Assembly (NCBI RefSeq): GCF_900090295.1
Contig: NZ_LT607753.1
Coordinates: forward strand, 6,510,001 to 6,574,000
Length of the DNA: 64,000 nucleotides
Reading direction: 5' to 3'
From: Micromonospora coxensis
GTDB taxonomy: Bacteria; Actinomycetota; Actinomycetes; Mycobacteriales; Micromonosporaceae
The notes under the pieces are model-generated. The model saw only the letters and a list, made by a program, of their open reading frames with translations, had not been told where the DNA came from and ran no database searches. Both the position numbers and the translations under genes were made by a program. Shown piece by piece: positions 39,758 to 59,796 of this stretch. Position 1 is the first letter of the stretch; each line of letters starts with the position of its first letter.

Positions 39758-40561
39758 ATGCACGCAATCGTCCTGGTTGGCGGGAAGGCCACACGCCTCT
39801 GGCCACGTACCCGGTCGCAGCCGAAGGCACTCGTCAAGATCGGGCAGTACCCGATCCTGGAGATCATCATCCGGCGGCTGCGGGACTGCGGGTTCGACCG
39901 CATCACCCTGTGCATCGCCCACCTCGGCGAGATGATCAGACGGGAGTTCGGTGACGGCCGCCATCTCGGCGTCACCGTGGACTACTGCACCGAGGAACGC
40001 CCCCTCGGCACCGCCGCGCCGCTGCACCTCGTGCCGGAATGGACCACACCGGCGGTGGTGATGAACGGCGACATCCTCACCACCGTCGACTTCGCCGACC
40101 TGTACCGACGACACACCACGAGCGGGAACCTGCTCACCGTGGCGTACCACCAGAGCGTGCTGTGCGCCGGCGTCGGCGTGCTCCAGGTACGCGACGGTCT
40201 GGTCCAGCAGATCTGGGAGAAGCCGCACGTCGAGTGGAACATCAGCGCCGGGGTCTACGTCGCCGACCCACGGGTGCTCGACTACATCCCCCGCAGCGAC
40301 GCCGCCGACATGCCCGGCCTGATCAACGCCCTGCTCGCCGACGGCCGGCAGGTGACCGGGTACGGCTTCCGTGGGCAGTGGTACGACATCGGCACGCCGT
40401 TCCGCTACCAGAAGGCGATGAAGGAGTTCCTGGCCCACCCGGACCGGTACCTCACCGCCGACGCGTCCCGCCGGGCCAACGGCGCCGGGCACCGGGTCGA
40501 GGTCGCCCTGGAGCCGGACGGGGACCGGCTGTCCGTCGCCGAACTCTCCCCCTGGAGTTGA
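39758..40561 (+). CDS. Sugar-1-phosphate nucleotidyltransferase
   Basis: A 267-aa nucleotidyltransferase making an NDP-sugar from NTP and sugar-1-phosphate. N-terminal signature IVLVGGKATRLWPRT (variant of GGxGTRLxPLT, with Lys-Ala in place of Gly-Thr), Lys in PKALVKIGQYPILE, metal-binding region VMNGDILTTVDF, then NISAGVYV and GQWYDIGTPFRYQKA. There is no C-terminal hexapeptide domain. First gene of the cluster; with the UDP-sugar dehydrogenase at 41556 it should supply an activated sugar to the glycosyltransferase at 56553. GGGAGG precedes the start. Confidence 0.88.
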   Translation: MHAIVLVGGKATRLWPRTRSQPKALVKIGQYPILEIIIRRLRDCGFDRITLCIAHLGEMIRREFGDGRHLGVTVDYCTEERPLGTAAPLHLVPEWTTPAVVMNGDILTTVDFADLYRRHTTSGNLLTVAYHQSVLCAGVGVLQVRDGLVQQIWEKPHVEWNISAGVYVADPRVLDYIPRSDAADMPGLINALLADGRQVTGYGFRGQWYDIGTPFRYQKAMKEFLAHPDRYLTADASRRANGAGHRVEVALEPDGDRLSVAELSPWS

Positions 40562-40566
40562 CCGCG

Positions 40567-41559
40567 ATGGCGCTGGATCCGTACACCGAGGGCGTCCGGC
40601 GGCTCATGTCCGCGGCGTACCCCGACGTGGGTGGCGCGGTGACCGACGCCGCCGAGGCCCGCCGCCGGCACGAGCGCGCCCGGTTCCCCCGGGGCCCGCA
40701 CGTCGGCGAGGTCCGCGACATCGTCATCCCCGGCACGCCGGACGTGCCGGCCCGCGTCTACCGGCCGGCGGAGGCCGGGCCGACGCCACCGGTCGTGGTC
40801 TACCTGCACGGCGGTGGATTCGTCCTGTGCGACCTCGACTCGCACGACGGGATCTGCCGCATCCTGGCCGACGGCACGCCGGCGATCGTCGTCTCGGTCG
40901 ACTACCGACGTGCCCCCGAGCACCCGTACCCGGCGGCGGTCGACGACGCGTTCACCGCCGTGCGCTGGGTGCACGCGGTCGGCGCGGCGGCGCTCGGCGG
41001 TGACCCGGACCGGATCGCCGTCGCCGGGGACAGCGCGGGCGGGAACCTCGCCACCGTGTGCTGCCTGCGCGCGCGCGACACCGGCGGCCCGCCGATCCGC
41101 TTCCAACTGCTCGTCTACCCGGTGACCGACTGCCTCGCCGACTGGTCCGACGACCCGGACGGGCAGCTCATGACCAGCCGGCACATGCGCTGGTACGTCG
41201 CGCAGTACCTGTCCGAGCGCGCGCACGGCGAGCAGGCGTACGCCTCGCCGCTGCGCGCCGGCAGCCTCGCCGGACTGCCACCGGCGTTCGTCCTGACCGT
41301 GGAGCACGACCCGCTGCGTGCCGAGGGCGAGGCGTACGCCGCCCGGCTCGCCGCCGACGGCGTCCCCGTGCAGGCGCACCGGGTGACCGGGCTCTTCCAC
41401 GGCGCGTTCGGCCTCGGCGCGCTGCTGCCGGCGGCGCGCCGGTGCGAGGAACTCGCGTGCGACGCGTTACGTGCCGGCCTGGCCGCGCCGCACGACCTGA
41501 CCACACCGACCGGTCCCGAGCCGGGCCGGATGAGCCAGCCGAGAAGGGTGGGCAGATGA
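40567..41559 (+). CDS. Alpha/beta hydrolase, hormone-sensitive-lipase family
   Basis: A 330-aa esterase-type enzyme. Oxyanion motif YLHGGGFVL (near 80-88), nucleophile Ser in AVAGDSAGGNLA (near 155), Asp in TVEHDPLRAEG (near 250) and His in GLFHGAFGLG (near 280). It may release or trim an ester intermediate or product. Five bases after the nucleotidyltransferase and overlapping the sugar dehydrogenase start (ATGA), so part of the same operon. The substrate is unknown. Confidence 0.88.
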   Translation: MALDPYTEGVRRLMSAAYPDVGGAVTDAAEARRRHERARFPRGPHVGEVRDIVIPGTPDVPARVYRPAEAGPTPPVVVYLHGGGFVLCDLDSHDGICRILADGTPAIVVSVDYRRAPEHPYPAAVDDAFTAVRWVHAVGAAALGGDPDRIAVAGDSAGGNLATVCCLRARDTGGPPIRFQLLVYPVTDCLADWSDDPDGQLMTSRHMRWYVAQYLSERAHGEQAYASPLRAGSLAGLPPAFVLTVEHDPLRAEGEAYAARLAADGVPVQAHRVTGLFHGAFGLGALLPAARRCEELACDALRAGLAAPHDLTTPTGPEPGRMSQPRRVGR

Positions 41560-42902
41560 ACCCGCACAGCGAACCGGGGCCGGTGGCCGTCATCGGGCTC
41601 GGCTACGTCGGACTGACCTTGGCGGTCTCGCTGGCCCGGGAGGGGACACCGGTCATCGGCGTGGAGGCCGATCCGGCGGTCCGCGCCGCGCTGGCACAGC
41701 GCCGCAGCGTCCTGTTCGAACCCGGTGTGGACGACCTGCTCGCCACCCTGCCGGCCGACCGGTTCACGGTCACCGACCGGCTGCCCGACACCCCCGTGCG
41801 CGCGATCGTCATCTGCGTCGGCACCGCCGTCGATCCGCACACCCGGCGGCCCGACCTGCGGCACCTGGAGGCCGCGGTGGAGCAGATCGCCGCCCATGTG
41901 GACGAGGAGACGCTGGTGGTGCTGCGCAGCACGGTGCCGGTGGGCACGACCCGCAGCCTCGTCCTCGCCCGGCTGCGGGCGCGGGGGATCGCCCACCCCC
42001 TGCTCGCGGTCTGCCCGGAGCGCACCATCCAGGGTCGCGCACTGGCCGAACTGGCGGCGCTGCCCCAGGTCATCGGCGGTCTCGACGAACGATCCGCCCG
42101 CCGGGCGGCCGACCTGCTCGGCCGACTCGCCCCGGACCAGGTGATCGTGTCCGGCCCGGAGGCGGCCGAGATGGTGAAGCTGGTGTGCAACGCGCACACC
42201 GACCTCATCTACGGATTCGGCAACGAGATGGCGCTGATGGCGCACTCGCTCGGCGTCGACGCCCACGAGGTGATCGACGCGGCCAACCTGCGCTATCCCC
42301 GGCCCGACCTGTCCCGGCCCGGCTTCGTCGGCGGCAGTTGCCTGACCAAGGACCCGTACCTGCTGATGCACGCCGCGGACCGGGCCGGCTACCACCCCCC
42401 GATGGTGGCGGCGGCGCGGGCCGTCAACGAGCGGCTGCCGCTGTTCGCCGTCGAGCAGCTGCTCGACGGGCTCGCCACGGCCGGGCGCGACGCCGCGCAG
42501 GCCCGGGTGCTGGTCTGCGGCATCGCGTACAAGGGCTCACCGGAGACCGACGACATCCGCGGCTCGGCGGCGGTCGAGGTGGCCCGGGCGCTGCGCGGCC
42601 GGGTGGCGCAGCTGCGCGGGCACGACTTCGTGGTGGCGCCCGAGCGGATCGGCCGGGCCGGATTCACGCCGGTCGGCCTCGACGACGGCCTCACCGACGT
42701 CGACGCGGTGCTGCTGCTGGTCGACCACCCGGGCTACCGGCAGGCGCTGAGCCGGCGCGTGCTGCGCGAGCGGCTGCGCCCGCCGGCGGTCGTGTTCGAC
42801 ATGTGGGGGGTGCTCGCCGAGGAGCTGGCCGGCGCCGACGACATCGACTACCGACGCCTGGGCGTGCCCGGCCGCACGCGCGGCACCCCCGTCGCGGTGT
42901 AG
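41556..42902 (+). CDS. UDP-glucose/GDP-mannose-type nucleotide-sugar dehydrogenase
   Basis: A 448-aa NAD-dependent enzyme oxidising the C6 hydroxyl of an NDP-hexose to a uronic acid. NAD motif VAVIGLGYVGLTLAVSLA (residues 9-26), RSTVPVGTTR, PERTIQGRAL, the central domain EMVKLVCNAHTDL with Lys and Asn, and catalytic Cys in GFVGGSCLTKDPYLL (near 255). The C-terminal UDP-binding domain (CGIAYKGSPETDDIRGSAA) is intact. Together with the nucleotidyltransferase it suggests an NDP-uronic acid donor for the cluster product. Confidence 0.92.
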   Translation: MNPHSEPGPVAVIGLGYVGLTLAVSLAREGTPVIGVEADPAVRAALAQRRSVLFEPGVDDLLATLPADRFTVTDRLPDTPVRAIVICVGTAVDPHTRRPDLRHLEAAVEQIAAHVDEETLVVLRSTVPVGTTRSLVLARLRARGIAHPLLAVCPERTIQGRALAELAALPQVIGGLDERSARRAADLLGRLAPDQVIVSGPEAAEMVKLVCNAHTDLIYGFGNEMALMAHSLGVDAHEVIDAANLRYPRPDLSRPGFVGGSCLTKDPYLLMHAADRAGYHPPMVAAARAVNERLPLFAVEQLLDGLATAGRDAAQARVLVCGIAYKGSPETDDIRGSAAVEVARALRGRVAQLRGHDFVVAPERIGRAGFTPVGLDDGLTDVDAVLLLVDHPGYRQALSRRVLRERLRPPAVVFDMWGVLAEELAGADDIDYRRLGVPGRTRGTPVAV

Positions 42903-42962
42903 GCCGGGCCCGCGCGGAACACCGGCACCCGAGACGGACGCGACCCGACGAGAGGACGGACC

Positions 42963-43895
42963 ATGACGGCGCTGGAGGAGGTCTCCACCCACCTGCCGGC
43001 GGAGCGGACGCCGGTCGCGCAGATCCTGACCGAACTCGACCACAGCCCGGCGCAGATCGGGCTCTACCGGCGCTACTACGGCTTCGCCGAGGTCCGCCGG
43101 GACCCCCGGGCCACCGTCGGCGACCTGCTGCTGGCCGCCGCGCGCAAGCTGGAACACCTGCGGGGCCGCGAGGAGCAGGTGCGCTACCTGGCGTACGCCC
43201 CGACGATCCAGCTGGCCGCGCCGTACCCGACCGACGTCCTCGGCCAGGTCCGCGACGCGCTCGGCCTCACCCACGCCGCCGCGTTCTCGCTGACCCAGCA
43301 CGCGTGCGCGTCCGCCCTGCTGGCCGTGGACGCCTGCGGGAAGCTGCTGGCCGCCGACGGCGACCCGGACGCGCTGGCGCTGGTGCTCGCCGGGGAGAAG
43401 ACGTTCACCCGGGTCACCCGGCTGATGCCGAACTCGGCGGTGATGGGGGAGGCGACCGCCGCCGTCCTCGTCCGGCCCGGCGGCGACCGGGACCGGGTGC
43501 TCGGGTACGCGACCCGTACGTACAGCGAGTTCCACGTCGGCCCCTTCGAGCCACCCGACCTGGCCGCGCGCTTCGACGAGCTCTACCCGACGGCGCTGGC
43601 CGAGGTGATCGAGGCGGCCCTGGACGCGTCCGGACTGACCGCCGCCGAGCTGACGCTCGTGCTGCCGCACAACGTCAACAAGATGTCCTGGTACCGGGTC
43701 GCCCGGATGATCGGGCTGCCGGTGGAGCGGATCCTGCTCGACAACGTGCCCGTGCTCGGCCACTGCTTCGGCGCCGACCCGTTCGTCAACTACCGCACCG
43801 CGCAGGAGCTGGGACGGTTGGACCCCGGCGACCACTATCTGATGACCTCGGTCGGCGTCGGCGCGACCTTCTCGGCGATGGTGTTGCGGCGCTGA
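42963..43895 (+). CDS. KAS III-like acyl-carrier-protein synthase
   Basis: A 310-aa thiolase-fold enzyme of the FabH-like family. Catalytic Cys in TQHACASALLAVDA (near 119), His in LPHNVNKMSW (near 239), and at the third position LGHCFGAD, where FabH has Gly-Asn, so the triad is Cys-His-His rather than Cys-His-Asn. Such variants can act as starter-forming synthases or as acyltransferases. It is the first of a tightly overlapping set with the ATP-grasp, decarboxylase and carrier genes, so it probably acts on the carrier-bound unit. ATG 42963 follows a GAGAGGACGG site. Confidence 0.88.
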   Translation: MTALEEVSTHLPAERTPVAQILTELDHSPAQIGLYRRYYGFAEVRRDPRATVGDLLLAAARKLEHLRGREEQVRYLAYAPTIQLAAPYPTDVLGQVRDALGLTHAAAFSLTQHACASALLAVDACGKLLAADGDPDALALVLAGEKTFTRVTRLMPNSAVMGEATAAVLVRPGGDRDRVLGYATRTYSEFHVGPFEPPDLAARFDELYPTALAEVIEAALDASGLTAAELTLVLPHNVNKMSWYRVARMIGLPVERILLDNVPVLGHCFGADPFVNYRTAQELGRLDPGDHYLMTSVGVGATFSAMVLRR

Positions 43896-45256
43896 TGACG
43901 ATGACCGAGGACTTCCGCGCCACGCTGCGCACCGCGCTGACCGGCCGGCCCGACACGCCGCTGGTCCTGCTCGGCAACTTCGAGGTCGAGGACGAGTGGG
44001 CCCGCACCGAACGGGGCCTGCCCCGGCTCACCGTGGGTGGCTCCGGCCGGGCCGTGGTCAACCGGATGGACGAGTTCGCGCTGCTGCTCGCCGCCGAGGG
44101 CGACCGGGTGGTGCTCAAGGCCGCCCCCGACCCCGACCACCTCGCCCAGTTGGCGGAGCTGGGCCTCACGCTGCCGCACATCCTGGTGCCGCGCGCGCAG
44201 GATCCGCAGCGTACGGTCGGCGCCGACGCGCTCGCCGACGACGCCCTGGTCGCGATGCTCGGCACGCTGGGTCGCGCCGGCTTCCGGCTCGCGCCGCACG
44301 GGGTCTCCGCCGTCGAGGAAGAGCTGTCCGGTCGGGCGGGGCTGCCGCTGGCCGCGCCGTCCGCCGCGATCTGCAAGGCGGTGAACAGCAAGGTCTACAG
44401 CCGCCGGCTCGCCACCGACCTCGCGCTGCGGCAGCCGCCGGGGCGTACCTGCGTCACCCTCGACGAGTTGGCGGACGCGCTCGCCTGGGCGGCCCGGGTG
44501 ATCGACGCCGGCGGTCGGGTGGTGGTCAAGGACGCGTTCGGTGTCTCCGGCAAGGGCATCACCGTGGTCGACGCCGGCCGCCGGCTCGACCAGGTACGGC
44601 GGATGGTGCACTCCCGGGCCGCCCGCAGCGGCCGCACCGACGTGGCGCTCGTCGTCGAGGAGTGGGTGGCCAAGCGCACCGACCTGAACTACCACTTCGT
44701 GGTGGGCCGCGACGGCACGGTCAGCGTCGACTTCGTCAAGGAGGCCCTGACCGACGACGGCGTGCACCAGGGCCACCGCTTCCCGGCCCGCCTCAGCGCG
44801 ACCCAGGTCGCCGAACTCGTCGCCGCCGCCGAGGCGATCGGCGGGCGGCTGGCCCGCGACGGCTACTTCGGTGTCGTCGGCGTCGACGCCATGGTGGACC
44901 CGGACGACGGCCTGTATCCGATCGTCGAGATCAACGCCCGCAACAACATGTCCACCTACCAGATCGTGGTGCAGGAGCGGCTCGTGCCGCCCGGCGCCGA
45001 GGTGCTGGCCCGGCACTACCCGCTGCGGACACCCGGGCCGCTGCCGTTCGCGGCCCTGCGCCGGCTGCTCGACGGTGTCCTGCTCACCCCGGGCCACCGG
45101 ACCGGCCTGGTGGTGACCGCCTTCGCCACGGTCAACGCCGCCCCGCCGGACGGCCGCCTGTACGCCCTGCTCGTGGCCGACACGACGGCGCGGTTGACCG
45201 CGCTCGACGCCGAGGTCACCCGGCGCCTGACCACCGTCACCGAGGAGACGAGATGA
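43895..45256 (+). CDS. ATP-grasp aminoacyl carrier-protein ligase (BtrJ-like)
   Basis: A 453-aa ATP-grasp enzyme. The nucleotide-binding Lys region is KAVNSKVYSRRL then RVVVKDAFGVSGKGITVVD; acidic metal ligands are in VVGVDAMVD and PIVEINARNN. Size and domain order fit BtrJ of butirosin biosynthesis, which charges an amino acid onto the carrier BtrI using ATP. The adjacent decarboxylase and carrier protein are the BtrK and BtrI counterparts, which supports this role over a peptide ligase. The start overlaps the KAS III stop (TGATG). The amino acid is unknown; Glu is the butirosin substrate. Confidence 0.85.
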   Translation: MTMTEDFRATLRTALTGRPDTPLVLLGNFEVEDEWARTERGLPRLTVGGSGRAVVNRMDEFALLLAAEGDRVVLKAAPDPDHLAQLAELGLTLPHILVPRAQDPQRTVGADALADDALVAMLGTLGRAGFRLAPHGVSAVEEELSGRAGLPLAAPSAAICKAVNSKVYSRRLATDLALRQPPGRTCVTLDELADALAWAARVIDAGGRVVVKDAFGVSGKGITVVDAGRRLDQVRRMVHSRAARSGRTDVALVVEEWVAKRTDLNYHFVVGRDGTVSVDFVKEALTDDGVHQGHRFPARLSATQVAELVAAAEAIGGRLARDGYFGVVGVDAMVDPDDGLYPIVEINARNNMSTYQIVVQERLVPPGAEVLARHYPLRTPGPLPFAALRRLLDGVLLTPGHRTGLVVTAFATVNAAPPDGRLYALLVADTTARLTALDAEVTRRLTTVTEETR

Positions 45257-46506
45257 CCGACCACGCCGCGCTGGCCGAGGAGTACGGCACCCCGCTGTTC
45301 GTCTACGAGGCCGACACGATCGCCGCGCAGTACACGGGCCTGCGGCAGCGGCTGCACCCGGCGATGGACGTCTTCTACTCGCTCAAGGCCAACCCGAACC
45401 TGGCGCTCTGCGGCCAGCTGCGCGCGCTCGGCGCCGGCGCCGAGGTGTCGTCGCTGCTCGAACTGACCACCGCCCGCGAGGCCGGCGTGCCGCCGGGCGA
45501 CATCGTCTTCCCCGGTCCCGGCAAGAGCCGCGAGGAGATCGCCGCCTGCCTGGACGCGGGGATCTACGCGATCATCTGTGAGTCGTTCGAGGAGCTGGAA
45601 CTGGTCGACGAGCTGGCCCGGGAACGCGGCGTCCGGGCCCGGGTCGCGCTCCGGGTCAACCCGGCCTTCGCCGTCAAGGGCTCCGGCCTGACCATGGGCG
45701 GCAAGCCCCGGCAGTTCGGCATCGACGAGTCGCAACTGTTCGCCCTGCCCGGTCTGCGCCTGGCCCACCTGCGCGTGGTCGGGGTGCACGTCTACCTGGG
45801 CACCCGGATCCTCGACGAGGCGGTGATCGCCGAGAACACCCGGCGCATCCTGACGCTCGCCGAGCGCCTCGCGGCGCACCTGGACTTCCCGCTGGAGTTC
45901 GTCGACGTCGGCGGCGGGCTCGGCGTGGCCTACTTCGACGGCGAGCGCGACCTGTCCGTGGCGCGCCTCACCGACCTGGTCAACCCGGTGGTCGCCGACT
46001 TCCACGACCGGCACCGCTCCACCCGGCTGATCATGGAACTCGGCCGGTACCTCGTCGCGCCGGCCGGCACGTACCTGGTCCGGGTGCGGTACGTGAAGAC
46101 CTCGATGGGTGAGCGCTTCGCGGTCACCGACGGCGGCACCCACCAGCACATGGCGGCGGTCGGCATCGGCTCGTTCGTCAAGCGCGACTTCCCGCTGCGC
46201 CTGCTCGGCCGGCCCGCCGACGGCCCGCTCGCCCGGTGGACGGTGACCGGCCCGCTGTGCACCCCGAACGACACCCTGGCCCGGGCCGCCGAGCTGCCCG
46301 ACCTGCGCCGGGGCGACCTGCTCGGCGTGCTCCGCTCCGGCGCGTACGGCCCGAGCGCCTCGCCGACGCTGTTCCTCGGACACGGCCATCCCGCCGAGGT
46401 CCTGGTGCGCGACGGCGTCGGGCACCTGATCCGGCACCGCGACCAGGTGGCGGACCTGCTCCGCCAGCAGAGAAGCCTCGTCACCACGGGAGGAGACCCA
46501 CGATGA
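45253..46506 (+). CDS. PLP-dependent decarboxylase, fold III (BtrK-like)
   Basis: A 417-aa alanine-racemase-fold decarboxylase of the diaminopimelate/ornithine/BtrK group. PLP Lys in FYSLKANPNLAL (near 42), glycine-rich phosphate motif VDVGGGLGVAY (near 217), MELGRYLVAPAG, and active-site Cys in GPLCTPNDTLAR (near 336) with GAYGPSASP closing. In the butirosin pathway this enzyme decarboxylates the glutamyl thioester on the carrier to give a gamma-aminobutyryl unit. ATGA overlaps on both sides bind it to the ATP-grasp and carrier genes. Free amino acid decarboxylation cannot be excluded. Confidence 0.88.
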   Translation: MTDHAALAEEYGTPLFVYEADTIAAQYTGLRQRLHPAMDVFYSLKANPNLALCGQLRALGAGAEVSSLLELTTAREAGVPPGDIVFPGPGKSREEIAACLDAGIYAIICESFEELELVDELARERGVRARVALRVNPAFAVKGSGLTMGGKPRQFGIDESQLFALPGLRLAHLRVVGVHVYLGTRILDEAVIAENTRRILTLAERLAAHLDFPLEFVDVGGGLGVAYFDGERDLSVARLTDLVNPVVADFHDRHRSTRLIMELGRYLVAPAGTYLVRVRYVKTSMGERFAVTDGGTHQHMAAVGIGSFVKRDFPLRLLGRPADGPLARWTVTGPLCTPNDTLARAAELPDLRRGDLLGVLRSGAYGPSASPTLFLGHGHPAEVLVRDGVGHLIRHRDQVADLLRQQRSLVTTGGDPR

Positions 46507-46769
46507 CCACAGCCGACATGGACCGCGACCAGCTCGCCGAGCGGACGGTCCGGGTGCTGGCCGGCGTGGTGCAGCGCGACCCGCAGACGCTGCACCAGGA
46601 CACCCGGCTCTTCGCCGACCTCGGCATGGACTCGACGAACGCGCTCGAACTGCTGATGACGCTGGAGGACGAGTTCGGTTTCGAGTTCGACCCCGAGACG
46701 CTCGAGTCGCGGCACCTGGAGACGGTCGGCTCCCTCACCGACTACATCGTCGAGCAGGCGGGCGGCTGA
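46503..46769 (+). CDS. Acyl carrier protein 1 (BtrI-like)
   Basis: An 88-aa acidic four-helix carrier protein. Phosphopantetheine attachment Ser in FADLGMDSTNALELLMTLEDEFG (two blocks: LGMDSTNALE and LLMTLEDEFG), with Thr where DSL is usual. Overlaps the decarboxylase stop, so it is the likely thioester platform for the ATP-grasp ligase and decarboxylase. Would be activated by the PPTase at 50863. Confidence 0.92.
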   Translation: MTTADMDRDQLAERTVRVLAGVVQRDPQTLHQDTRLFADLGMDSTNALELLMTLEDEFGFEFDPETLESRHLETVGSLTDYIVEQAGG

Positions 46770-46772
46770 GCC

Positions 46773-50857: not shown

Positions 50858-50862
50858 CCGGC

Positions 50863-51663: not shown

Positions 51664-51695
51664 CGACTCCTTGTCCGGATGGCAGGATCGGCGAC

Positions 51696-52598: not shown

Positions 52599-52653
52599 CC
52601 GCGCTGCGGACGGCGCGAATTCGGAGATTCAATCCCAGCGAAAGGTTGGTTTC

Positions 52654-52935
52654 ATGTCCACGTCCATGGCACAGGATTCCGCCGCCCTTTCCGCCGCCAT
52701 CGGAAAGGTGATGGGCGACGTTCTCCAGCGCGGTGCGCTGGCCCCGAACGACGATTTCTTCGACAGTGGCGGCGATTCGCTGCGCGCCATTGAAGTGCTG
52801 CAGCGGATGGTCTCCGCGGACGGAATTCCGTCCGCCGTCGGATCGACCGACATGCAGGCGATCCTGCTGGAGGAGATCTTCGAGAAGCCGACGCCCTCGG
52901 CACTGGCGGCGGTGGTGAGTGAGCACCTGCGCTGA
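52654..52935 (+). CDS. Acyl/peptidyl carrier protein 2
   Basis: A 93-aa carrier protein. Attachment Ser in FFDSGGDSLRAIEVLQRM, a GGDSLRA form typical of peptidyl carriers and type II aryl/acyl carriers, unlike the DSTNA form of carrier 1. It is immediately upstream of an AMP-ligase, which is the likely loading enzyme. The leader and first codons are relatively AT-rich. GAAAGG serves as ribosome site. Confidence 0.92.
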   Translation: MSTSMAQDSAALSAAIGKVMGDVLQRGALAPNDDFFDSGGDSLRAIEVLQRMVSADGIPSAVGSTDMQAILLEEIFEKPTPSALAAVVSEHLR

Positions 52936-52975
52936 CCGACGACCCGCCGACCGGCCGGCTACCGAGGGAGGGTGG

Positions 52976-54493
52976 ATGTTCATCGAACCGCGTGACGCCC
53001 ACGCGCCCGCCGTGCGGGTGGCCACGCCGGGCGGCGCCGGGACCGACACCAGTTGGGCGGCCCTCCGCGACACCGCCGCGGCCGTGTCCGACCGGGCCCG
53101 ACGGCTGCGCCGCGACGCCCCGGTCGTCGTGGTGGTCGACGGGACGGCGGAGAGCATCGCGACCGTGCTCGGCCTGGTCGACGCCGGCGTGGACGTCCTG
53201 CTGCTGGAGGAGCGCAGCTCGCACCTGGCCGATCCGCGGTCACCGGTGCACCGCCTCGCGAGCCCGGCCGTCATCGGCCCACCGTCGATGCCGGACGCCT
53301 CGACGCCGCACGGGCCGGTCCGGCTCAGCTACGAGGCGGTGCGGCAACCGGGCCGGCTGCCTGCCGGGGCGGTCGGCGGATCGGCCGGGGCGACGACTCC
53401 GAGCCGTCCCGGCGAGATCCTGCAACTCACCTCGGGCTCCACCGGTCAACCGCGTATCGCCCGGCAGACCCTCGACAACGTGCTCGCCGGCGCCCGGGCG
53501 TACTGCGAGCTCTTCCGGATCACCGGCGCGGACGTCGTGCTGGTCGCCGTGCCGGTGGCGCACTCCTACGGCCTGGCCGGCACGCTCGCCGCGCTGCTCT
53601 CGCAGGCGCTGCTGGTCACGCTGCCCCGGTTCAGCATCCGGTCGCTGGTCGCCGGGCTGGACGAGGGAGCGACCGTGCTGCTCGGCACGCCGCTGCTCTA
53701 CAAGCTGCTGGTCCCCGTGCTGGCGGCGCGACGACGACCGACCCGGGTGCGGACCGCGCTGTCCGCCGGCGGGCCGCTCGACGCCGACACCGCCGCCCGC
53801 ATCGGTGACCTGCTGGGCAGCCCGATCCGGCAGATCTACGGCATCACCGAGGCGGGACTGGTCGCCTGCGTGCCGCAGGCGCTCACCGACTGGCCGGCCG
53901 GGTCGGTCGGGCCCGCCGCCCCCGGCGTCACCCTGCGCATCGAGGGTGAGGCCGCCACCGACGCGGCGGACCCGACGGCGACCACCGGCGTCGGCGGACC
54001 GGCCCGCACCGGCCGTCTCCTGGTGCGCACCCCGGCGCTGTTCCGCGGCTACTGGGGCACACCGGAGCGGGGGCTGACCGACGACGGCTTCTACGACACC
54101 GGCGACGTCGTCCGCCTCGACGCGGACGGGCACCTGTTCGTGCTCGGCCGCAAGGACAGCTTCGTCAACGTCGGCGGCCGCAAGGTGAACCCGCGCCGCG
54201 TCGAACAGGTGCTCACCGGGCACCCGCACGTGCGGGAGGCGTTCGTCTACGGCGCGGAGCGGCCCGACGGCGAGCAGGAGATCCACGCGGCCGTGGTGCT
54301 CGACCCGGCCAGCACGGCCGAGGAGGTGCTGGCGCACTGCCGGGCCGCCTCGCTGATGCCGTACGAGGTGCCGCACCACGTCCACACCATCGACCGGCTG
54401 CCGCGCAGCGGCATGGGCAAGGTCGACCGGCAGCGGCTGCTCGCCCTGGTCGCCCGGCCCTCGCCCGGCCCGGCAGCACCCGTCCATCCGTGA
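52976..54493 (+). CDS. AMP-dependent acyl/aminoacyl ligase loading carrier 2
   Basis: A 505-aa member of the adenylate-forming superfamily. Core motifs: LTSGSTGQPRIARQT (A3), SAGGPLDA, IYGITEAGLVA (A5), FYDTGDVVRLDADGHLFVLG (A7-A8), VNVGGRKVNPRRVEQVL, and the catalytic Lys in RSGMGKVDRQRL (A10). It activates a carboxylic acid as acyl-AMP and passes it to carrier 2 or CoA. GGGAGG lies five bases before ATG 52976. Substrate cannot be read from sequence; the absence of the Asp235-type residue would need alignment to decide. Confidence 0.9.
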   Translation: MFIEPRDAHAPAVRVATPGGAGTDTSWAALRDTAAAVSDRARRLRRDAPVVVVVDGTAESIATVLGLVDAGVDVLLLEERSSHLADPRSPVHRLASPAVIGPPSMPDASTPHGPVRLSYEAVRQPGRLPAGAVGGSAGATTPSRPGEILQLTSGSTGQPRIARQTLDNVLAGARAYCELFRITGADVVLVAVPVAHSYGLAGTLAALLSQALLVTLPRFSIRSLVAGLDEGATVLLGTPLLYKLLVPVLAARRRPTRVRTALSAGGPLDADTAARIGDLLGSPIRQIYGITEAGLVACVPQALTDWPAGSVGPAAPGVTLRIEGEAATDAADPTATTGVGGPARTGRLLVRTPALFRGYWGTPERGLTDDGFYDTGDVVRLDADGHLFVLGRKDSFVNVGGRKVNPRRVEQVLTGHPHVREAFVYGAERPDGEQEIHAAVVLDPASTAEEVLAHCRAASLMPYEVPHHVHTIDRLPRSGMGKVDRQRLLALVARPSPGPAAPVHP

Positions 54494-54518
54494 GACACAC
54501 CTACCTGGGGGTGACCCG

Positions 54519-55382
54519 ATGACCACCACTGCTTCCCGCGAACCGCGCAGCATCGACGGAGTCGGCGAGACCGCGCTGTGGATGGCCGCAGCCCGGGCCC
54601 GCGAGAGCCGGCGACCCGACCGGCTCTTCGAGGATCCGTACGCCGAGAAGCTCGCCGGCCCGCGCGGACCCGACCTGCTGCGCTACTACCACACCTCGCG
54701 CGGCGCGGACACCGGCAACCCGTACCTGGCGATCCGGCACCGCTGGTTCGACGAGTTCCTGCTCGAGTCGGCGACGCCCGGCTGCCAGGTCGTCGGGCTC
54801 GGCGCCGGGCTGGACACCCGCGCCTACCGGCTGGACTGGCCGGCCGACACCGTGCTGTACGAGGTGGACAAGGCCGCGGTGCTGGCGTACAAGGCCGAAC
54901 ACCTGTCGGCGGGCGACGACGCGGCGCGCTGCGAGCGCCGGCTGGTGCCGGCCGACCTCAGCGAGGACTGGCTGGCCGCGCTGCGCGAGGCGGGCTTCGA
55001 CCCGCAGCGCCCCTCCGTGTGGTTCGCCGAGGGCGTCTTCTTCTACCTGCCCGAGGAGAAGGCCGCGCAGGTCCTGCGCGACGTGCAGGGCGTCTCGGCG
55101 CCGGGCAGCCGGATCGCCATCGACGTCATCGGCACCGGCATCTTCCGGTTCCCGTACATGCAGGACTACCTGCAGCGGCTGGCGGACGCGGGCGCGCCGT
55201 GGCGGTGGGGCACCGACGACCCGGCGGCCTGGATGCGCGCCTGCGGCTGGACGGCGGACGCGGTCCTCGAACCGGGCAACAAGGGAGCCAGCTTCGGCCG
55301 GTGGAGCGAGGACGCCTCACCGCCGGACGTGCCGAACCTGCCCCGGATCTACCTGATCAGCGCCCGCCCGGGCACCGACTGA
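54519..55382 (+). CDS. SAM-dependent methyltransferase (TIGR00027/LCMT-like)
   Basis: A 287-aa class I methyltransferase of the leucine-carboxyl-methyltransferase-like group. Signature motifs: DRLFEDPYAEKLAG near 33-46, SAM-binding VVGLGAGLDTRAYRL near 92-106, YEVDKAAVLAYK near 113-124 and FAEGVFFYLPEE near 168-179. Such enzymes methylate carboxylates or hydroxyls. It lies between the ligase and the FMN oxidase, so a tailoring step is inferred. Confidence 0.9.
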   Translation: MTTTASREPRSIDGVGETALWMAAARARESRRPDRLFEDPYAEKLAGPRGPDLLRYYHTSRGADTGNPYLAIRHRWFDEFLLESATPGCQVVGLGAGLDTRAYRLDWPADTVLYEVDKAAVLAYKAEHLSAGDDAARCERRLVPADLSEDWLAALREAGFDPQRPSVWFAEGVFFYLPEEKAAQVLRDVQGVSAPGSRIAIDVIGTGIFRFPYMQDYLQRLADAGAPWRWGTDDPAAWMRACGWTADAVLEPGNKGASFGRWSEDASPPDVPNLPRIYLISARPGTD

Positions 55383-55388
55383 CCGGTG

Positions 55389-56501
55389 ATGGCCCACGAA
55401 CCTGCGGCGGCGGCCGGGATCGCCAGCGTGGACGACCTGCGCCGACTGGCCCGTGCGAGACTCCCCGGCCCCGTCTGGGACTACGTGACCGGCGGCGCCG
55501 GGGAGGAACGGACGGTCCGGGCCAACCGCGACGCGTTCCGCCGGCTCACGCTGCTGCCCCGGGTGCTCGTCGACGTGGCCGCGCGGGACCCGCGCACCAC
55601 CGTCCTGGGCACCGGGGTGGCCGCGCCGGTCGGCATCGCGCCGACGTCGTACCAGAGCCTCGCGCATCCGGACGGGGAACTGGCCACCGCCCGGGCCGCC
55701 GGCTCGCGTGGTCTGCTCGACGTGGTGAGCGTCTTCTCCAGCGTGTCGCTGGAGGACGTCGCCGGGGCGGCCACCGGACCGCTGTGGTTCCAGCTCTACT
55801 GCCTGCGGGACCGGGGGGTGACCCGGGAGCTGGTGCAGCGGGCCGCCGCGGCCGGCTACCGCGCGCTCGTGCTCGGCGTCGACCTTCCGGTGATCGGCTA
55901 CCGAGACCGGGACATCCGCAACCGGTTCCAACTGCCCCCCTCGGTGGCCCCGGTCAACCTGCCGGCCGACGTCGCCCCCGGCGGCAGCGTCCTGGACGAG
56001 CTGAACCGGGCCCTGGTGGACCCGGCGCTGACCTGGCGCGACGTCGAGTGGATCCGGGAGATCAGCCCGCTGCCGCTGGTGGTCAAGGGGATCGTCGCCG
56101 CCGACGACGCCGACCGGGCCGCGCGCATCGGCGCCGACGCGGTGCTGGTCTCCAACCACGGCGGACGGCAACTGGACGGCGCCCCGGCGAGCATCACCGC
56201 GCTGCCGGACGTGGTGAGCGCGGTGGCCGACCGGTGCGAGGTGTACCTCGACAGCGGCGTCCGCCGGGGCACCGACGTGCTGGCGGCGGTGGCCCGGGGC
56301 GCCCGGATGGCGTTCGTCGGCCGCCCGGTCATGTGGGGGCTGGCCGCCGGCGGGGAGGACGGGGTGCGCGCCGCCCTCGACCTGTACCTGACCGAACTCG
56401 ACCTGGCCATGGCGGTGTGCGGGTGCCCGGACGTGCCGAGCATCGGGCCGCACCTGCTCGGGCCGACCGACCCGCCGGGCGACCGCCCGGCCGACAGGTA
56501 G
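55389..56501 (+). CDS. FMN-dependent alpha-hydroxyacid oxidase/dehydrogenase
   Basis: A 370-aa TIM-barrel flavoenzyme of the glycolate oxidase/lactate dehydrogenase/mandelate oxidase family. Motifs: GIAPTSYQSLAHPDGE (FMN), WFQLYC, VVKGIV with catalytic Lys, VSNHGGRQLDGAPAS with active-site His and Arg, and YLDSGVRRGTDVL. It oxidises a 2-hydroxyacid to a 2-oxoacid, or possibly an amine-bearing analogue, in the pathway. ATG 55389 is used; GTG 55386 directly before it is possible. Confidence 0.92.
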   Translation: MAHEPAAAAGIASVDDLRRLARARLPGPVWDYVTGGAGEERTVRANRDAFRRLTLLPRVLVDVAARDPRTTVLGTGVAAPVGIAPTSYQSLAHPDGELATARAAGSRGLLDVVSVFSSVSLEDVAGAATGPLWFQLYCLRDRGVTRELVQRAAAAGYRALVLGVDLPVIGYRDRDIRNRFQLPPSVAPVNLPADVAPGGSVLDELNRALVDPALTWRDVEWIREISPLPLVVKGIVAADDADRAARIGADAVLVSNHGGRQLDGAPASITALPDVVSAVADRCEVYLDSGVRRGTDVLAAVARGARMAFVGRPVMWGLAAGGEDGVRAALDLYLTELDLAMAVCGCPDVPSIGPHLLGPTDPPGDRPADR

Positions 56502-56552
56502 GACGACCGCGTCCCGACGGACCGTCGTGCCGACGATAGCGAGGGGTTACTG

Positions 56553-58625
56553 GTGGATCCGTTTGTCCGTACGGCCGACAAGGCGCCGTACCACCGTCTG
56601 TGGACCGAGCAGAACCAGAGCCAGCCGCCGGAGACCGCCATCGACAGTCCGCTGCTGACCCTGGAACACACCTCGGACGTCAACCCGCTCGAACCCGAGC
56701 AGGTCAGCGAGGCCCGGCGGGTGCTGCGACAGCGCCGCGCCCTCGTCGACGGCTCCCATGCCGAGCTGCGCGAGTCGGTGATCCAGGGCCAGCGGCACGT
56801 GGTGGAGCGGTTCCTCGCCGGCCGGCGGGCCCGCTTCGGCATCGCGCAGAGCCGCCCGCTCGACGACGTGCCGGCGCTGGTGCGCGAGGGCCGCGACATC
56901 TTCATCGTGGTCAAGTTCATGGACGAGCGGCCCCACCTCGCCGCCACCCTGGCGTCGCTGGTGCACCAGCGCGACGTCGACCTCGGCCGGGTGGTGATCC
57001 TGGCGGTGGACGGCAACTCGACCGACGGATCCGACACGGTCGTGGCCGACGCCATCGCGCGCAACCCCAGCGCGGCGCGCATCGCGTACCTCAACCAGAG
57101 CATGCCGGGCGCCGGCAACGCCGCCCGGCTCGGCATCGACACCTGCATCGCCACCGTGTACGAGATGTGCCGCGCCGACGGCCGCTGGGACCGGCTGCAG
57201 ACCGCGACGATCGCGGTCTCCGACGGCGACACCGTCTACCACCCGTCCACGGTGGGCACGATCCGGCGGATGCTGGACGAGGACCCGACGGTCGACGCCG
57301 TCATGCCGTTCCTGACCTACAAGTTCACCGCCGCCCTGCGGTTGTTCCAGGACTACCGGCCGGCGGACCCGGAGGAGCTGCGCCGGTGCGCCGCCGGCAC
57401 CGAGCCCGTCCCGGTCGACGTGGACCTGTCCGACCTGCACGCGCACCGGGCGCTGCCGCGCGCCGGCCGGCGGACCGACGGGGAGACCGTGCGGCTGACC
57501 GGCGCCGACGGCACGACGGTGAGCGTCGGGCTGTCGGCGGTGGACCCGTACGGGCGGCGGTTCGGCGTGCTCGCCGACCGGGCCGGCCGGCGCGGGTACC
57601 TCTTCGAGGACCGCAACCTGGTGCTCGCCGAGGCTCCGGTCTCCGGCTTCGACGCCGCCCTGGTCTTCCTGGAGAACGGTGGGGTCCGGCCGGACGAGAA
57701 GTGGCGCTGGCACACCGTGATCGGCCACGACCTCTTCCTGTACTGGTCCTTCGCGGGCATGGGGCTGCCGGAGCGCATGGTCTTCCCGGACACCAGCGAC
57801 GCCCTCAAGACGGCCCGGGTGTGGAGCCTCGCCATCGGTGGGCAGCACCAGCTCCGCAGGCCGGGGCTGCGCATCGCCACCGGCAGCGACTACCAGTCCG
57901 GGCGGGTCCTGCAGGCGGTCGGCTGCACGGTGCGGCTCGGGCCGGCCGAGGTGTTCACCGAGACGGAGACCGACCGGCTGATCAAGATGATCCGCAACTT
58001 CGTCCGCCGGCAGTCGGTGTTCTACGGCGAGACGCGCAGCGCCGCGCTGGAACGCGCCACCGGCCTGTACGTGCACATGACCCGGATCCAGAACGAGATC
58101 GAGCGGGAACTGCGCGACGACTACGACGACGAGGTGTTCGCGCAGACGGCGTTCCCGGAGCGGGTGATCTTCCCGCTGCGGTGGATGCTGCAGAACGCCG
58201 TCCGGTACGCCGCGCACGGCGAGCCGGAGCACGAGACCGTCCGGGCCCGGGTGCTGCGGGTGATGTTCCGGCCCGACACGGCCGCCCGCATCGACCGCGA
58301 CCTTCTCACCCCGGCCGCCCTGTCGGCGGTGGCCGACGCCACGTACCACCGGAAGCAGGAGCTGGCCGAGCGGGTCGCCGAGGCGATCATCACCGACCAC
58401 TACGTGGAGATCATGGAGTTCTACCAGGCGACGCTGCGCGACTTCTTCGCCGCCCACGAGGTGCCGGAGCGCTGCTGGGCGTGGCTGCTCGACGGGGTGG
58501 GCGAGTCCCGCAACGCGCTGCGGGAGCAACCGCCCAAGGTGGACCCGGCCGCGGTCTGGGACGGCGCGGAGTTCGACATCGACGTCGCCCGGGGCCAGGT
58601 CGTCGGGCTACGGGAGCGACGCTGA
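56553..58625 (+). CDS. Large family 2 (GT-A) glycosyltransferase
   Basis: A 690-aa protein. N-terminal 100 residues are helical; GT-A core from about 115 (DIFIVVKFMDERPHLAATL, VDGNSTDGSDTV) to about 430 with a DxD-like VSDGDTVYHPSTV near 225. Residues 290-370 look like an inserted region, and 440-690 is a helical C-terminal domain. No membrane helices are evident, so it is probably a soluble transferase. With the NDP-sugar genes at the start of the cluster it should attach a sugar, perhaps a uronic acid. GTG start with GAGGGG upstream. Acceptor unknown. Confidence 0.82.
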   Translation: MDPFVRTADKAPYHRLWTEQNQSQPPETAIDSPLLTLEHTSDVNPLEPEQVSEARRVLRQRRALVDGSHAELRESVIQGQRHVVERFLAGRRARFGIAQSRPLDDVPALVREGRDIFIVVKFMDERPHLAATLASLVHQRDVDLGRVVILAVDGNSTDGSDTVVADAIARNPSAARIAYLNQSMPGAGNAARLGIDTCIATVYEMCRADGRWDRLQTATIAVSDGDTVYHPSTVGTIRRMLDEDPTVDAVMPFLTYKFTAALRLFQDYRPADPEELRRCAAGTEPVPVDVDLSDLHAHRALPRAGRRTDGETVRLTGADGTTVSVGLSAVDPYGRRFGVLADRAGRRGYLFEDRNLVLAEAPVSGFDAALVFLENGGVRPDEKWRWHTVIGHDLFLYWSFAGMGLPERMVFPDTSDALKTARVWSLAIGGQHQLRRPGLRIATGSDYQSGRVLQAVGCTVRLGPAEVFTETETDRLIKMIRNFVRRQSVFYGETRSAALERATGLYVHMTRIQNEIERELRDDYDDEVFAQTAFPERVIFPLRWMLQNAVRYAAHGEPEHETVRARVLRVMFRPDTAARIDRDLLTPAALSAVADATYHRKQELAERVAEAIITDHYVEIMEFYQATLRDFFAAHEVPERCWAWLLDGVGESRNALREQPPKVDPAAVWDGAEFDIDVARGQVVGLRERR

Positions 58626-58678
58626 CGGGGATCCGGGGGACCGTCGGCGATGGACACGACGACAGGACAGGAGGAGCC

Positions 58679-58864
58679 ATGAGGGCGGTTGTCACCGCCG
58701 GCCCCGACGGCACGCGGGAGGTCCACGACGTGTCGACCTCCGGCCCGGGGTCGGGGCAGGTGCGGATCAGGGTGCCGGCCGGCGGGCGGCCCGCCGTCGC
58801 GCCGGCGGACCGGGTGGTCGACGACCACGCGTCGCTCCCGGCCGGCCGCGGCGGGCGACGGTGA
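58679..58864 (+). CDS. 61-aa protein resembling the N-terminus of a zinc/quinone-type MDR reductase
   Basis: A small frame with an excellent AGGAGGAG site. MRAVVTAGPDG, then GSGQVRIRVPAGGRP and APADRVVDD, resembles the first 55 residues of medium-chain dehydrogenases (MRAVV...PGPGxVxVxVxAxGxNPADxxVRxG), after which the protein stops. It overlaps the next start by four bases (GTGA). It could be a truncated relic retained because it drives translation of the BtrH-like gene, or a small functional peptide. No leader-peptide features of RiPPs are evident. Confidence 0.5.
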   Translation: MRAVVTAGPDGTREVHDVSTSGPGSGQVRIRVPAGGRPAVAPADRVVDDHASLPAGRGGRR

Positions 58865-59796
58865 CCGGCATGGTGGTCCGCTACGTCGGCGACGGTCCGA
58901 ACTGCTACGCCGCCGCGCTGACCATGGCGCTCGGCCCGGCCGGTCCCGGTCCCGCCGCCATCGAGGTGCTCACCGGATCGCCGTACGGCCTGTCGCTGCA
59001 CGGTCCGGACCTGCCGGTCTTCTCCCCGGCGGGGTGGAATCCGGAGATCGGCGTCGCGGCGGCGCTCGACCTGCTCGGCTGGACCTGCGAGCGGACCAGC
59101 GGTTCGGTCGACGAGGCGATCGCCCGCATCGCGCGGGCCACCCCGACCGATCCGGTCGTCACCGGCCCGCTCGAGATGGGGTTGCTGCCGCATCATCCCG
59201 GCCTGGGGCAGGCGATCGGCACGGAGCACTACCTCCTGGTCCTCGGGCTGGAGGGCGACGTCGTCCGGATGCACGACCCGCGCGGGTTCCCCTACGCGAC
59301 GCTGCCCCTGGACTCGCTGCTCGCCGCGTGGCAGACCGACGCGTTCGTGTACCCGGTGGAGCCGTTCATCACCCGTAGCAGGTTCCGCCGGGCCCGCGAG
59401 GTCGACCTGGCCACCGCGCTGCGCGCCTCGCTGCCCGCGGCGCTGGGGTGGCTCACCGGCGCGGACGCCGCGTCCACCGCCGAACGGATCGCCCGGATCG
59501 TCGAGGACGGGCTCACCGACTCGCAGTACAAGTACCTCGTGGAGTACACGGTCAGCGGGGGCGCCCGCCGGCTCGGCGACGCTGCCGTGCTGCTCGCCGA
59601 GATCGGGTGTGTCGGCCCGGCCCGGGTCCTGGAGCACCAGGCCCGCCTCGTCGGAGCCCTTCAGCATCCGCTGGTGGCCGGGGACCGGGCCGCGGCGGCC
59701 GCGCTGTGGCGGGAGCTGGCGCCCACCTACGCGCACCTGTGCGACGAGTTGTCGCGGGTCCCGGCGGGGGGCCCCGCCGTGGCGGCCCCGTCCTGA
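58861..59796 (+). CDS. BtrH-like cysteine acyltransferase 2 of the cluster
   Basis: A 311-aa paralogue of the gene at 51696, sharing blocks such as AAIEVLTGSPYGLSLHG, WNPEIG, ALDLLGWTCERT and SQYKYLVEY. Probable triad Cys15 (GDGPNCYAAAL), His123 (IGTEHYLLVLGL) and Asp139 (VVRMHDPRGFP). The pair may act on two carrier-bound acyl groups or as a heterodimer. GTG start overlaps the stop of the 61-aa gene. Last gene of the cluster. Confidence 0.75.
   Translation: MTGMVVRYVGDGPNCYAAALTMALGPAGPGPAAIEVLTGSPYGLSLHGPDLPVFSPAGWNPEIGVAAALDLLGWTCERTSGSVDEAIARIARATPTDPVVTGPLEMGLLPHHPGLGQAIGTEHYLLVLGLEGDVVRMHDPRGFPYATLPLDSLLAAWQTDAFVYPVEPFITRSRFRRAREVDLATALRASLPAALGWLTGADAASTAERIARIVEDGLTDSQYKYLVEYTVSGGARRLGDAAVLLAEIGCVGPARVLEHQARLVGALQHPLVAGDRAAAAALWRELAPTYAHLCDELSRVPAGGPAVAAPS

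Follow-up and report, generated by a model that had tools for sequence, protein, structure and literature searches.

The genome of Micromonospora coxensis carries a block of co-directional genes in which carrier-protein enzymes resembling those of butirosin biosynthesis stand among genes for sugar activation, glycosyl transfer and export, which raises the question of what such a set could make and whether it is one pathway at all. The window analyzed is a 64,000-nucleotide stretch (positions 6,510,001 to 6,574,000 of contig NZ_LT607753.1) of the 6.77 Mb, single-contig host genome, and the block lies at 39,758–59,796 of that window, to which all positions below refer. Calling by codon-position G+C gave 20 genes, all on the plus strand, in agreement with an earlier note on this DNA that had described about 20 co-directional genes between the same outer coordinates. 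The gene content, conservation, catalytic residues and family placement reported here are established. By analogy with published pathways, the core chemistry is most likely known already, namely the formation of dehydro-β-alanine (Dba), here in an actinobacterial variant of ATP-grasp type; what is new is the setting, in which the cassette for this chemistry is joined to glycosyl and papain-like genes without a nonribosomal peptide synthetase (NRPS). With confidence a little above even, we read the block as a single biosynthetic cluster built on this cassette, in which glycosyl/transferase off-loading replaces the NRPS, and its product may be an undescribed compound of lipid–sugar type.

The cassette comprises seven contiguous genes (42,963–49,475) encoding a β-ketoacyl-acyl carrier protein synthase III (KAS III)-like protein (KSIII), an ATP-grasp loader (GRASP), a decarboxylase (DEC), an acyl carrier protein (ACP1), a degenerate KAS III-like protein (orf8) and the small and large acyl-CoA dehydrogenase subunits (ACDs and ACDl); by Pfam, loader, carrier, pyridoxal phosphate (PLP) decarboxylase, KAS III-like enzyme and acyl-CoA dehydrogenase are all encoded together. 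The best PDB match of DEC is BtrK (2.6e-91), followed by diaminopimelate decarboxylase (6.7e-55), and its PLP lysine, Lys45, is kept in 44 of 44 sequences (residue counts include the window sequence). Ser39 of ACP1 is kept in 42/42, and Glu362 of ACDl, which aligns with the EG of acyl-CoA dehydrogenases and which we take to be the catalytic base, in 35/35. What the earlier note called a split acyl-CoA dehydrogenase does have a small and a large part, but these are two genes, paired in most relatives: a C-terminal-half subunit, whose family profile matches the C-terminal halves of acyl-CoA dehydrogenases (best 6.8e-6), and a large subunit, which carries the catalytic Glu. KSIII retains Cys115 in 43 of 44 sequences (the remaining row is gapped there) and His236, His267 and Asp272 in every one. 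In alignment with FabH, His267 takes the place of the catalytic Asn, with Asp272 five residues further on; the FabH-type Cys-His-Asn triad is thus absent, the Asn position being His in 44/44. FabH chains head the PDB matches of the KSIII family profile (3.2e-21), with CerJ (1.1e-12) and ChlB3 (8.9e-11) lower. The partner orf8 has no Pfam match on its own, and no Cys is conserved across 42 orf8 sequences; its family profile matches KAS III chains (best 3.3e-6) over the N-terminal half only, and since an hhalign comparison with the KSIII family was not significant (probability 1.2%), its link to KAS III rests on these weaker PDB profile matches.

To place the cassette, named bacterial genomes were scanned with the ATP-grasp protein, which returned 44 loci, and gene order was read with seven protein profiles and score filters. 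The exact seven-gene order occurs in 33 of these 44 named actinobacterial loci, with six loci that are cut by contig ends scored as misses; this recurrence argues that the arrangement is not due to chance, and the gene-order search proposed in the earlier note thus finds the core in other genomes. Two further loci (L046 and L047; L-numbers denote loci and G-numbers surveyed genomes) contain all seven genes, reordered. The loader is present in 25 of 200 genomes of the host family, Micromonosporaceae (E ≤ 1e-20, own genome included), one of which, G187, has a loader of only 33% identity; in the genus group of Streptomyces sp. CB02261 it was matched in 21 of 295 (E ≤ 1e-60). G019, a genome listed in the host family, and Allorhizocola rhizosphaerae (L058) have identical loaders.

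Published Dba systems offer a model for this gene set. For the bolagladins, the portion of PMC7756342 used here names BolC as carrier, BolN as a BtrK-like decarboxylase, BolM and BolP as KAS III homologues and BolQ as the dehydrogenase; loss of bolQ leads to β-alanine in place of Dba, loss of bolN abolishes the product, and the enamidonins are given as the only other compounds reported with Dba as of 2020. Reports after 2020 add a few further Dba compounds. In the part of PMC12186527 available to us, AfcQ and AfcP build β-alanine on the carrier AfcK from L-Asp in vitro, and AfcL is a KAS III-like acyl-transfer enzyme with a Cys/His/Asp triad. For the olenamidonins and autucedines, the accessible text of PMC11204786 proposes that a 3-oxoacyl-ACP synthase (AutS/OleH) ligates an acyl-CoA to DHA-ACP and gives a UV absorption of the olenamidonins at 266 nm, and a 2022 paper refers in its title to lipochain-linked dihydro-β-alanine synthetases.

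By analogy with these systems, the ATP-grasp ligase would load L-aspartate through its side-chain carboxyl onto ACP1, and the BtrK-type decarboxylase would strip the α-carboxyl to leave β-alanyl-ACP1. KSIII and its degenerate partner would then acylate the amine, so that an amide arises rather than a C-C bond, with an acyl group, itself conjectural in identity, that is perhaps activated by the AMP ligase on a second carrier (ACP2). The two-subunit flavin dehydrogenase would convert this intermediate to N-acyl-3-aminoacrylyl-ACP1, the order of acylation and desaturation being that of the bol pathway. More speculatively, one or both papain-like proteins could shift the acyl-Dba unit (or an acyl group bound to ACP2) to the amine of a sugar-containing acceptor, which would be made with the NDP-sugar dehydrogenase (UGD), the nucleotidyltransferase (NTP) and a family 2 glycosyltransferase (GT2); both the sugar and the product are conjecture. 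The methyltransferase (LCM) and the flavin mononucleotide oxidase (FMN) would tailor the product and the MATE protein would export it. The earlier note's outline of an amine made on a carrier, acylated or desaturated, glycosylated and exported holds in direction, and agrees with clusters of like content; its view that no described product has this set stands for the whole 20-gene order, for which we found no described cluster in the open-access literature, but not for the core, a Dba-type cassette with published counterparts.

The amino acid that enters this pathway is suggested by the neighbors of related cassettes. In 11 of the 44 loci (L055, L057, L058, L060, L062–L067 and L070), families of a mutase group lie upstream of the cassette, an FMN-protein family in 11 and a MutE family in 9; representatives of the group are a MutE-type methylaspartate mutase, a B12-binding protein, MbtH, a class II (D/K/N) aminoacyl-tRNA synthetase-like protein and a glutamate-synthase-like FMN protein. 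The mutase-linked loaders and two host-family loaders form one clade of the loader tree (13 rows, support 100/99, one change), which points to aspartate-type substrates, 3-methylaspartate within the clade and aspartate elsewhere. The substrate of the loader is therefore likely aspartate and not glutamate, and the mutase-linked cassettes are predicted, from their genes, to yield an α-methyl dehydro-β-alanine unit. The window loader falls outside this clade, beside that of Marinitenerispora sediminis (L040; 95/87), whose cassette is preceded by the DegT, GH and ADH neighbors seen in the sugar-type clusters. The sugar-type label changes four times on the loader tree, with two changes forced by well-supported branches, which suggests that the cassette has been joined with sugar genes repeatedly.

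Other cassettes are linked to NRPS genes, and one of these provides the best independent test of the Dba reading. Neighbor families whose representatives contain Pfam PALP (6 loci) and OCD (5 loci) domains, presumably the SbnA/SbnB pair for diaminopropionate, accompany some cassette loci, and in Streptomyces sp. CB02261 the co-directional order is KSIII-GRASP-DEC-ACP1-orf8-ACDs-ACDl-OCD-PALP-NRPS. The NRPS of 4,969 aa contains four motifs each for adenylation (A) and carrier domains, and five HHxxxDG motifs, which fits four condensation (C) domains and one epimerization (E) domain; Pfam, applied to the protein in two halves, gave 2 + 2 AMP-binding, 4 + 2 Condensation and 1 + 2 carrier stretches and one thioesterase, so that Pfam, with the protein scanned in two pieces, disagrees with the motifs on the numbers of Condensation and carrier domains. 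This gene set is the one that an enamidonin backbone would need, and genes for a known Dba backbone thus lie beside the cassette in one of the two NRPS-linked loci inspected (CB02261 and G719).

The sugar and transfer genes of the window have their nearest counterparts in a few host-family genomes. G131 and G034 combine the cassette, with the decarboxylase moved within it, with homologues of LCM, papain-like protein B (BtrHb, 49–50%), NTP, the AMP ligase (AMP), UGD and ACP2, and with a GT1-type glycosyltransferase, a DegT aminotransferase, an epimerase and a GH-like protein. G122 encodes all seven cassette proteins (contig positions 43,205–67,649) with NTP, UGD, AMP, LCM, ACP2 and a condensation-domain relative, and BtrHb is not among the recurring accessory genes of that stretch. 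Two Pseudonocardia cassette loci carry AMP, UGD, the alpha/beta hydrolase (est) and DegT and no dehydrogenase pair; their est homologues match at 56–57%, those of G114 and G009 at 63–64%. In G114 and G009, the KSIII/orf8 pair, papain-like protein A (BtrHa, ~60%), UGD, GT2, FMN, est and AMP occur together, with ACP2 and LCM in addition in G114 and ACP1 and the phosphopantetheinyl transferase (PPTase; gene PPT) in G009, and no match to the loader, the decarboxylase or the dehydrogenase pair was seen in the stretches read. Both have a type I polyketide synthase (PKS) of KS-AT-DH-KR-ACP layout in the same region (L097 and L118 in G114; L098, L120 and L121 in G009), and may represent a related cluster type that transfers a polyketide acyl group; G009 has a separate cassette on another contig. 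Since the accessory set travels with the cassette in G131, G034 and G122 and the GT2/FMN half is found in G114 and G009, the window combines two related cluster types. GT2 is rare: counting the own genome each time, it was matched in 4 of 200 genomes of the family, in 2 of 160 from the genus and in 1 of 394 from the class.

The off-loading step would fall to the papain-like proteins. Cys12, His120 and Asp136 are invariant in 18/18 members of the BtrH-like family, and the two BtrH-like acyltransferases of the earlier note are borne out as two genes with invariant Cys, His and Asp residues, less so as BtrH relatives: with a threshold of E ≤ 1, 3 of the 18 members match Pfam BtrH_N (best 0.046, short of the Pfam cut-off), 6 match Peptidase_C39 (best 0.014) and 3 the C39-like DUF3335 (best 0.0028), BtrHb matches none of the three, and neither Pfam nor PHROGs nor PDB profiles supported an identity as BtrH at a significant level. 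A BtrH-like match is present in 10 of the 25 loader-bearing genomes. In the window, G131 and G034 it is no more than 30 kb away from the loader, and in the draft genomes G019, G077, G113 and G122 it is on a different contig. As a working hypothesis drawn from these sequences, the BtrH-like proteins would be acyl-Dba transferases.

Several observations weigh against this interpretation. BtrH-like proteins occur in 52 of 200 family genomes, more broadly than the cassette, and among 14 hand-picked neighborhoods outside cassette clusters (L128–L141) a BtrH-like gene was called in 13, in six of which it adjoins a ~270-aa family with one scanned member that is MerR-like; this broad occurrence and the weak family matches weaken the case for an acyl-transfer role. 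Of the 44 named loci, read with at most 10 kb of flanking DNA, none has a homologue of NTP, LCM, FMN, GT2 or the BtrH-like genes, whereas est has one in 2, UGD in 3 and ACP2 in 6 (MATE in 10 and the PPTase in 21, with relatives of the AMP ligase in 25). In the four other genomes found to carry GT2 (G114, G009, G115 and G306), no loader lies beside it. Three cassettes (L034, L042 and L056), two of them the Pseudonocardia sugar-type clusters, are without the ACDs/ACDl pair. At the NRPS-linked locus of G719 (L053), the 20 kb inspected lack PALP and OCD and contain, on the opposite strand, a 2,325-aa part of an NRPS that extends almost to the end of the stretch and has two A domains and a thioesterase; this locus counts neither for nor against the reading. 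BtrJ, the loader of the butirosin pathway, loads glutamate. The link to bol, afc and aut rests on described function and not on sequence alignment, and both Burkholderia systems, as far as their descriptions go, use a VinN-type ligase (AfcQ in afc) where the window has an ATP-grasp enzyme, which makes the window less identical to the Burkholderia type while leaving the function unaffected. The wording of PMC11204786, in the part consulted, implies that desaturation precedes acylation, opposite to the order proposed for the bolagladins and followed here.

The same observations bear on other readings of the locus. Two neighboring clusters, a Dba operon (39,758–51,663) and a BtrH/AMP-ligase/GT2/FMN cluster akin to that of G114 and G009 (51,696–59,796), would account for the GT2 and FMN homologues that have no adjoining loader in G114, G009, G115 and G306, for the absence of FMN, GT2, LCM and BtrH-like homologues from the named cassette loci, and for the change in spacing from overlaps to gaps of 32–88 bp near the low third-position G+C of 51.6–52.9 kb. 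We consider this division rather unlikely, however, as G114 and G009 also carry genes of the left half (the KSIII/orf8 pair, est and UGD), and G131 and G034 join BtrHb, LCM, AMP and ACP2 of the right half to NTP, UGD and the cassette of the left. The alternative of separate, unrelated operons, raised by the earlier note, is excluded only in part, because in G114 and G009 the GT2/FMN half is found with neither loader nor decarboxylase. It is also improbable, in our judgment, that the dehydrogenase pair works on the fatty chain and leaves the N-acyl-β-alanine unit saturated. Acyl-CoA dehydrogenases in general often act on acyl chains, and three cassettes do without the pair; against this, clusters with two further dehydrogenases by an AMP ligase and ACP (e.g. 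L029, L031, L039, L049, L069 and L071) retain ACDs/ACDl, and the bolQ phenotype, as given in the text of PMC7756342 used here, sets a precedent for desaturation of the β-alanine unit.

A butirosin-like route, in which glutamate is loaded, γ-aminobutyrate is formed on ACP1 and the BtrH-like enzymes transfer it, draws on BtrK as the nearest solved relative of DEC. We give this route little credence: no flavin monooxygenase of the BtrO kind was matched by Pfam among the 20 genes, the mutase-linked loader clade indicates aspartate-type substrates, and the KAS III pair and dehydrogenases have no known role in butirosin formation. The absence of aminoglycoside genes remarked in the earlier note is confirmed, since Pfam and NCBIfam gave no match so readable among the 20 genes. 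That the KAS III pair performs C-C condensation toward an amino-polyketide is in keeping with the KAS III fold, with a profile that matches FabH chains above CerJ and ChlB3, and with the existence of LstA/LstB-type pairs; with the FabH catalytic Asn lost to an invariant His in KSIII and no ketoreductase or PKS matched by Pfam within the cluster, we rejected such condensation as scarcely credible. The single Dba-based cluster is thus the reading that we carry forward. A wider proposal, which we hold only tentatively, is that such clusters define a new class of NRPS-free glycoconjugates, in which papain-like transferases would move N-acyl-Dba, made by the ATP-grasp cassette, from the carrier to a sugar-bearing amine, be it an amino-uronic acid or another, the cassette being a portable enamide module with lipopeptide, glycoside and, via glutamate mutase, α-methylated versions.

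The full layout is given in the table. Named families are backed by Pfam and NCBIfam for 16 of the 20 genes, with no match for orf8, BtrHa, BtrHb and the 61-aa ORF at E ≤ 0.001. Exactly four bases are shared at 4 of the 19 gene junctions, so that the "many" four-base overlaps of the earlier note exist but are generously counted; two other junctions overlap by 1 and 8 bases, and downstream of the PPTase gene seven of eight gaps measure 32–88 bp. Third-position G+C is low around 51.6–52.9 kb (PPT 0.888, BtrHa 0.900, ACP2 0.819), and BtrHa most likely starts at ATG 51,696, which gives 300 aa. The last ~37 codons of the PPTase gene lie outside the family match. The stretch 51,560–52,930, which joins the low third-position G+C of the PPTase gene, BtrHa and ACP2 to these PPTase codons, may mark a junction of two acquired halves. 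For UGD, the closest specific NCBIfam models are UDP-N-acetylhexosamine dehydrogenases, all under cut-off; the UDP-ManNAc dehydrogenase model scored 221 bits (cut-off 750) and the UDP-Glc dehydrogenase AglM 149 (cut-off 670). GT2 has no PDB, NCBIfam or PHROGs match. By Pfam, the 20 genes lack any Condensation domain as well as the PALP and OCD domains of an SbnA/SbnB-type diaminopropionate supply. Outside the cluster, a transglutaminase-like gene (38,491–39,372, minus strand), divergent from it, was considered as an AdmF-like partner and left out because matches occur in 47 of 121 family genomes, most without a loader match; its homologues lie beyond and adjacent to ACP2 in the cassette loci L046 and L047. 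Upstream of the cluster, the window also encodes a GGDEF-EAL-PAS protein (31,960–33,969), and upstream of the window the host contig (G000:C1) has, at ~6.20–6.47 Mb, a very large modular PKS/NRPS region in which carrier-domain matches number several dozen and many of them fall in very long open frames (up to 10,195 codons).

Table. Genes of the M. coxensis cluster in window coordinates, with the evidence for each assignment.
Feature	Position	Strand	Evidence
NTP_transferase, sugar-1-phosphate nucleotidyltransferase (NTP), 267 aa	39758–40561	+	Pfam NTP_transferase 2.5e-32; homologues in G131, G034, G122 clusters
Alpha/beta hydrolase, HSL/acetyl-esterase type (est), 330 aa	40567–41559	+	Abhydrolase_3 4.7e-73
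NDP-sugar 6-dehydrogenase (UGD), 448 aa	41556–42902	+	TIGR03026 above cut-off, 296 vs 190 bits
Cassette 1, KAS III-like acyltransferase (KSIII), 310 aa	42963–43895	+	ACP_syn_III_C 3e-14; Cys115, His236
Cassette 2, ATP-grasp carrier-protein amino-acid ligase, PreATP-grasp domain (GRASP), 453 aa	43895–45256	+	PreAtp-grasp 7.6e-13
Cassette 3, BtrK-type PLP decarboxylase (DEC), 417 aa	45253–46506	+	best PDB match BtrK; Lys45
Cassette 4, acyl carrier protein (ACP1), 83 aa	46518–46769	+	PP-binding 1.5e-12; Ser39
Cassette 5, degenerate KAS III-like partner (orf8), 322 aa	46773–47741	+	family profile vs KAS III chains
Cassette 6, small acyl-CoA-dehydrogenase-like subunit (ACDs), 197 aa	47738–48331	+	Acyl-CoA_dh_1 1.3e-5
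Cassette 7, large acyl-CoA-dehydrogenase-like subunit (ACDl), 383 aa	48324–49475	+	Acyl-CoA_dh_M/_1 ~1e-17; Glu362
MATE exporter, 461 aa	49472–50857	+	MatE 4e-22
Sfp/HetI-type phosphopantetheinyl transferase (PPT)	50863–51663	+	ACPS 1.4e-11; HetI model 24–229 of 266
Papain/C39-like Cys-His-Asp protein A, BtrH-like (BtrHa), 300 aa	51696–52598	+	invariant residues; weak family matches
Second carrier protein (ACP2), 93 aa	52654–52935	+	PP-binding 5.2e-8, only first 41 of 67 model positions
AMP-forming acyl ligase, presumed ACP2 loader (AMP), 505 aa	52976–54493	+	AMP-binding 3.1e-32
LCM-family S-adenosylmethionine methyltransferase (LCM), 266 aa	54582–55382	+	TIGR00027 above cut-off, 220 vs 94 bits
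FMN-dependent alpha-hydroxyacid oxidase/dehydrogenase (FMN), 357 aa	55428–56501	+	FMN_dh 2.6e-130
Large GT2-family glycosyltransferase (GT2), 690 aa	56553–58625	+	Glycos_transf_2 4e-6
Small ORF, 61 aa	58679–58864	+	no Pfam/NCBIfam match
Papain/C39-like Cys-His-Asp protein B, BtrH-like (BtrHb), 308 aa	58870–59796	+	invariant residues; weak family matches

The frequency of the loader in the host family and in the Streptomyces group suggests that products with an enamide link are more common and chemically more varied (peptide, sugar, methyl-aspartate) than the described compounds. The cassette offers a direct handle for genome mining and a set of enzymes with which the making of amide-linked enamides can be tested, and the NRPS-free variant with glycosyl and papain-like genes is worth isolating.

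Among known systems, the butirosin side-chain pathway (BtrI/J/K/H) shares with the window a carrier protein, an ATP-grasp enzyme, a BtrK-type decarboxylase and the logic of a papain-like transferase, whereas the window has neither an aminoglycoside gene nor a monooxygenase match, probably uses Asp in place of Glu, and adds the KAS III pair and the dehydrogenases. ChlB3 and CerJ are both matched by the KSIII profile, and like them KSIII keeps the Cys-His pair but not the Asn; the likeness to them and to AfcL is one of description, with Asp272 of KSIII a candidate counterpart of the Asp in these three enzymes. KSIII differs in that its profile matches FabH chains more strongly, and in its proposed role of forming an amide on β-alanyl-ACP with a degenerate partner subunit. 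The bol cluster of Burkholderia gladioli, to judge from the portion of its description used here, resembles the window in its ACP, BtrK-like decarboxylase, two KAS III homologues and acyl-CoA dehydrogenase for Dba; it differs in naming one such dehydrogenase where the window has a two-subunit pair, in KAS III homologues with Ser/Thr for Cys, in its NRPS and in a citrate-primed fatty acid. The afc cluster for AFC-BC11, also from Burkholderia, shows in the accessible text thiotemplated Dba chemistry without Condensation domains, an acyltransferase (AfcL) with a second KAS III-like protein (AfcO), and a need for a UDP-glycosyltransferase-type gene in production (PMC12186527); AFC-BC11, however, contains three Dba residues and a dehydro-Lys, and neither a papain-like transferase nor an NDP-sugar dehydrogenase was seen in the part of the afc description consulted. 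The Streptomyces compounds autucedine, olenamidonin and enamidonin (aut, ole) have, as described in the available text, a Dba that is N-acylated by a fatty chain, as proposed for the window, which lacks their NRPS and PALP/OCD genes and has sugar, GT2, FMN and papain-like genes.

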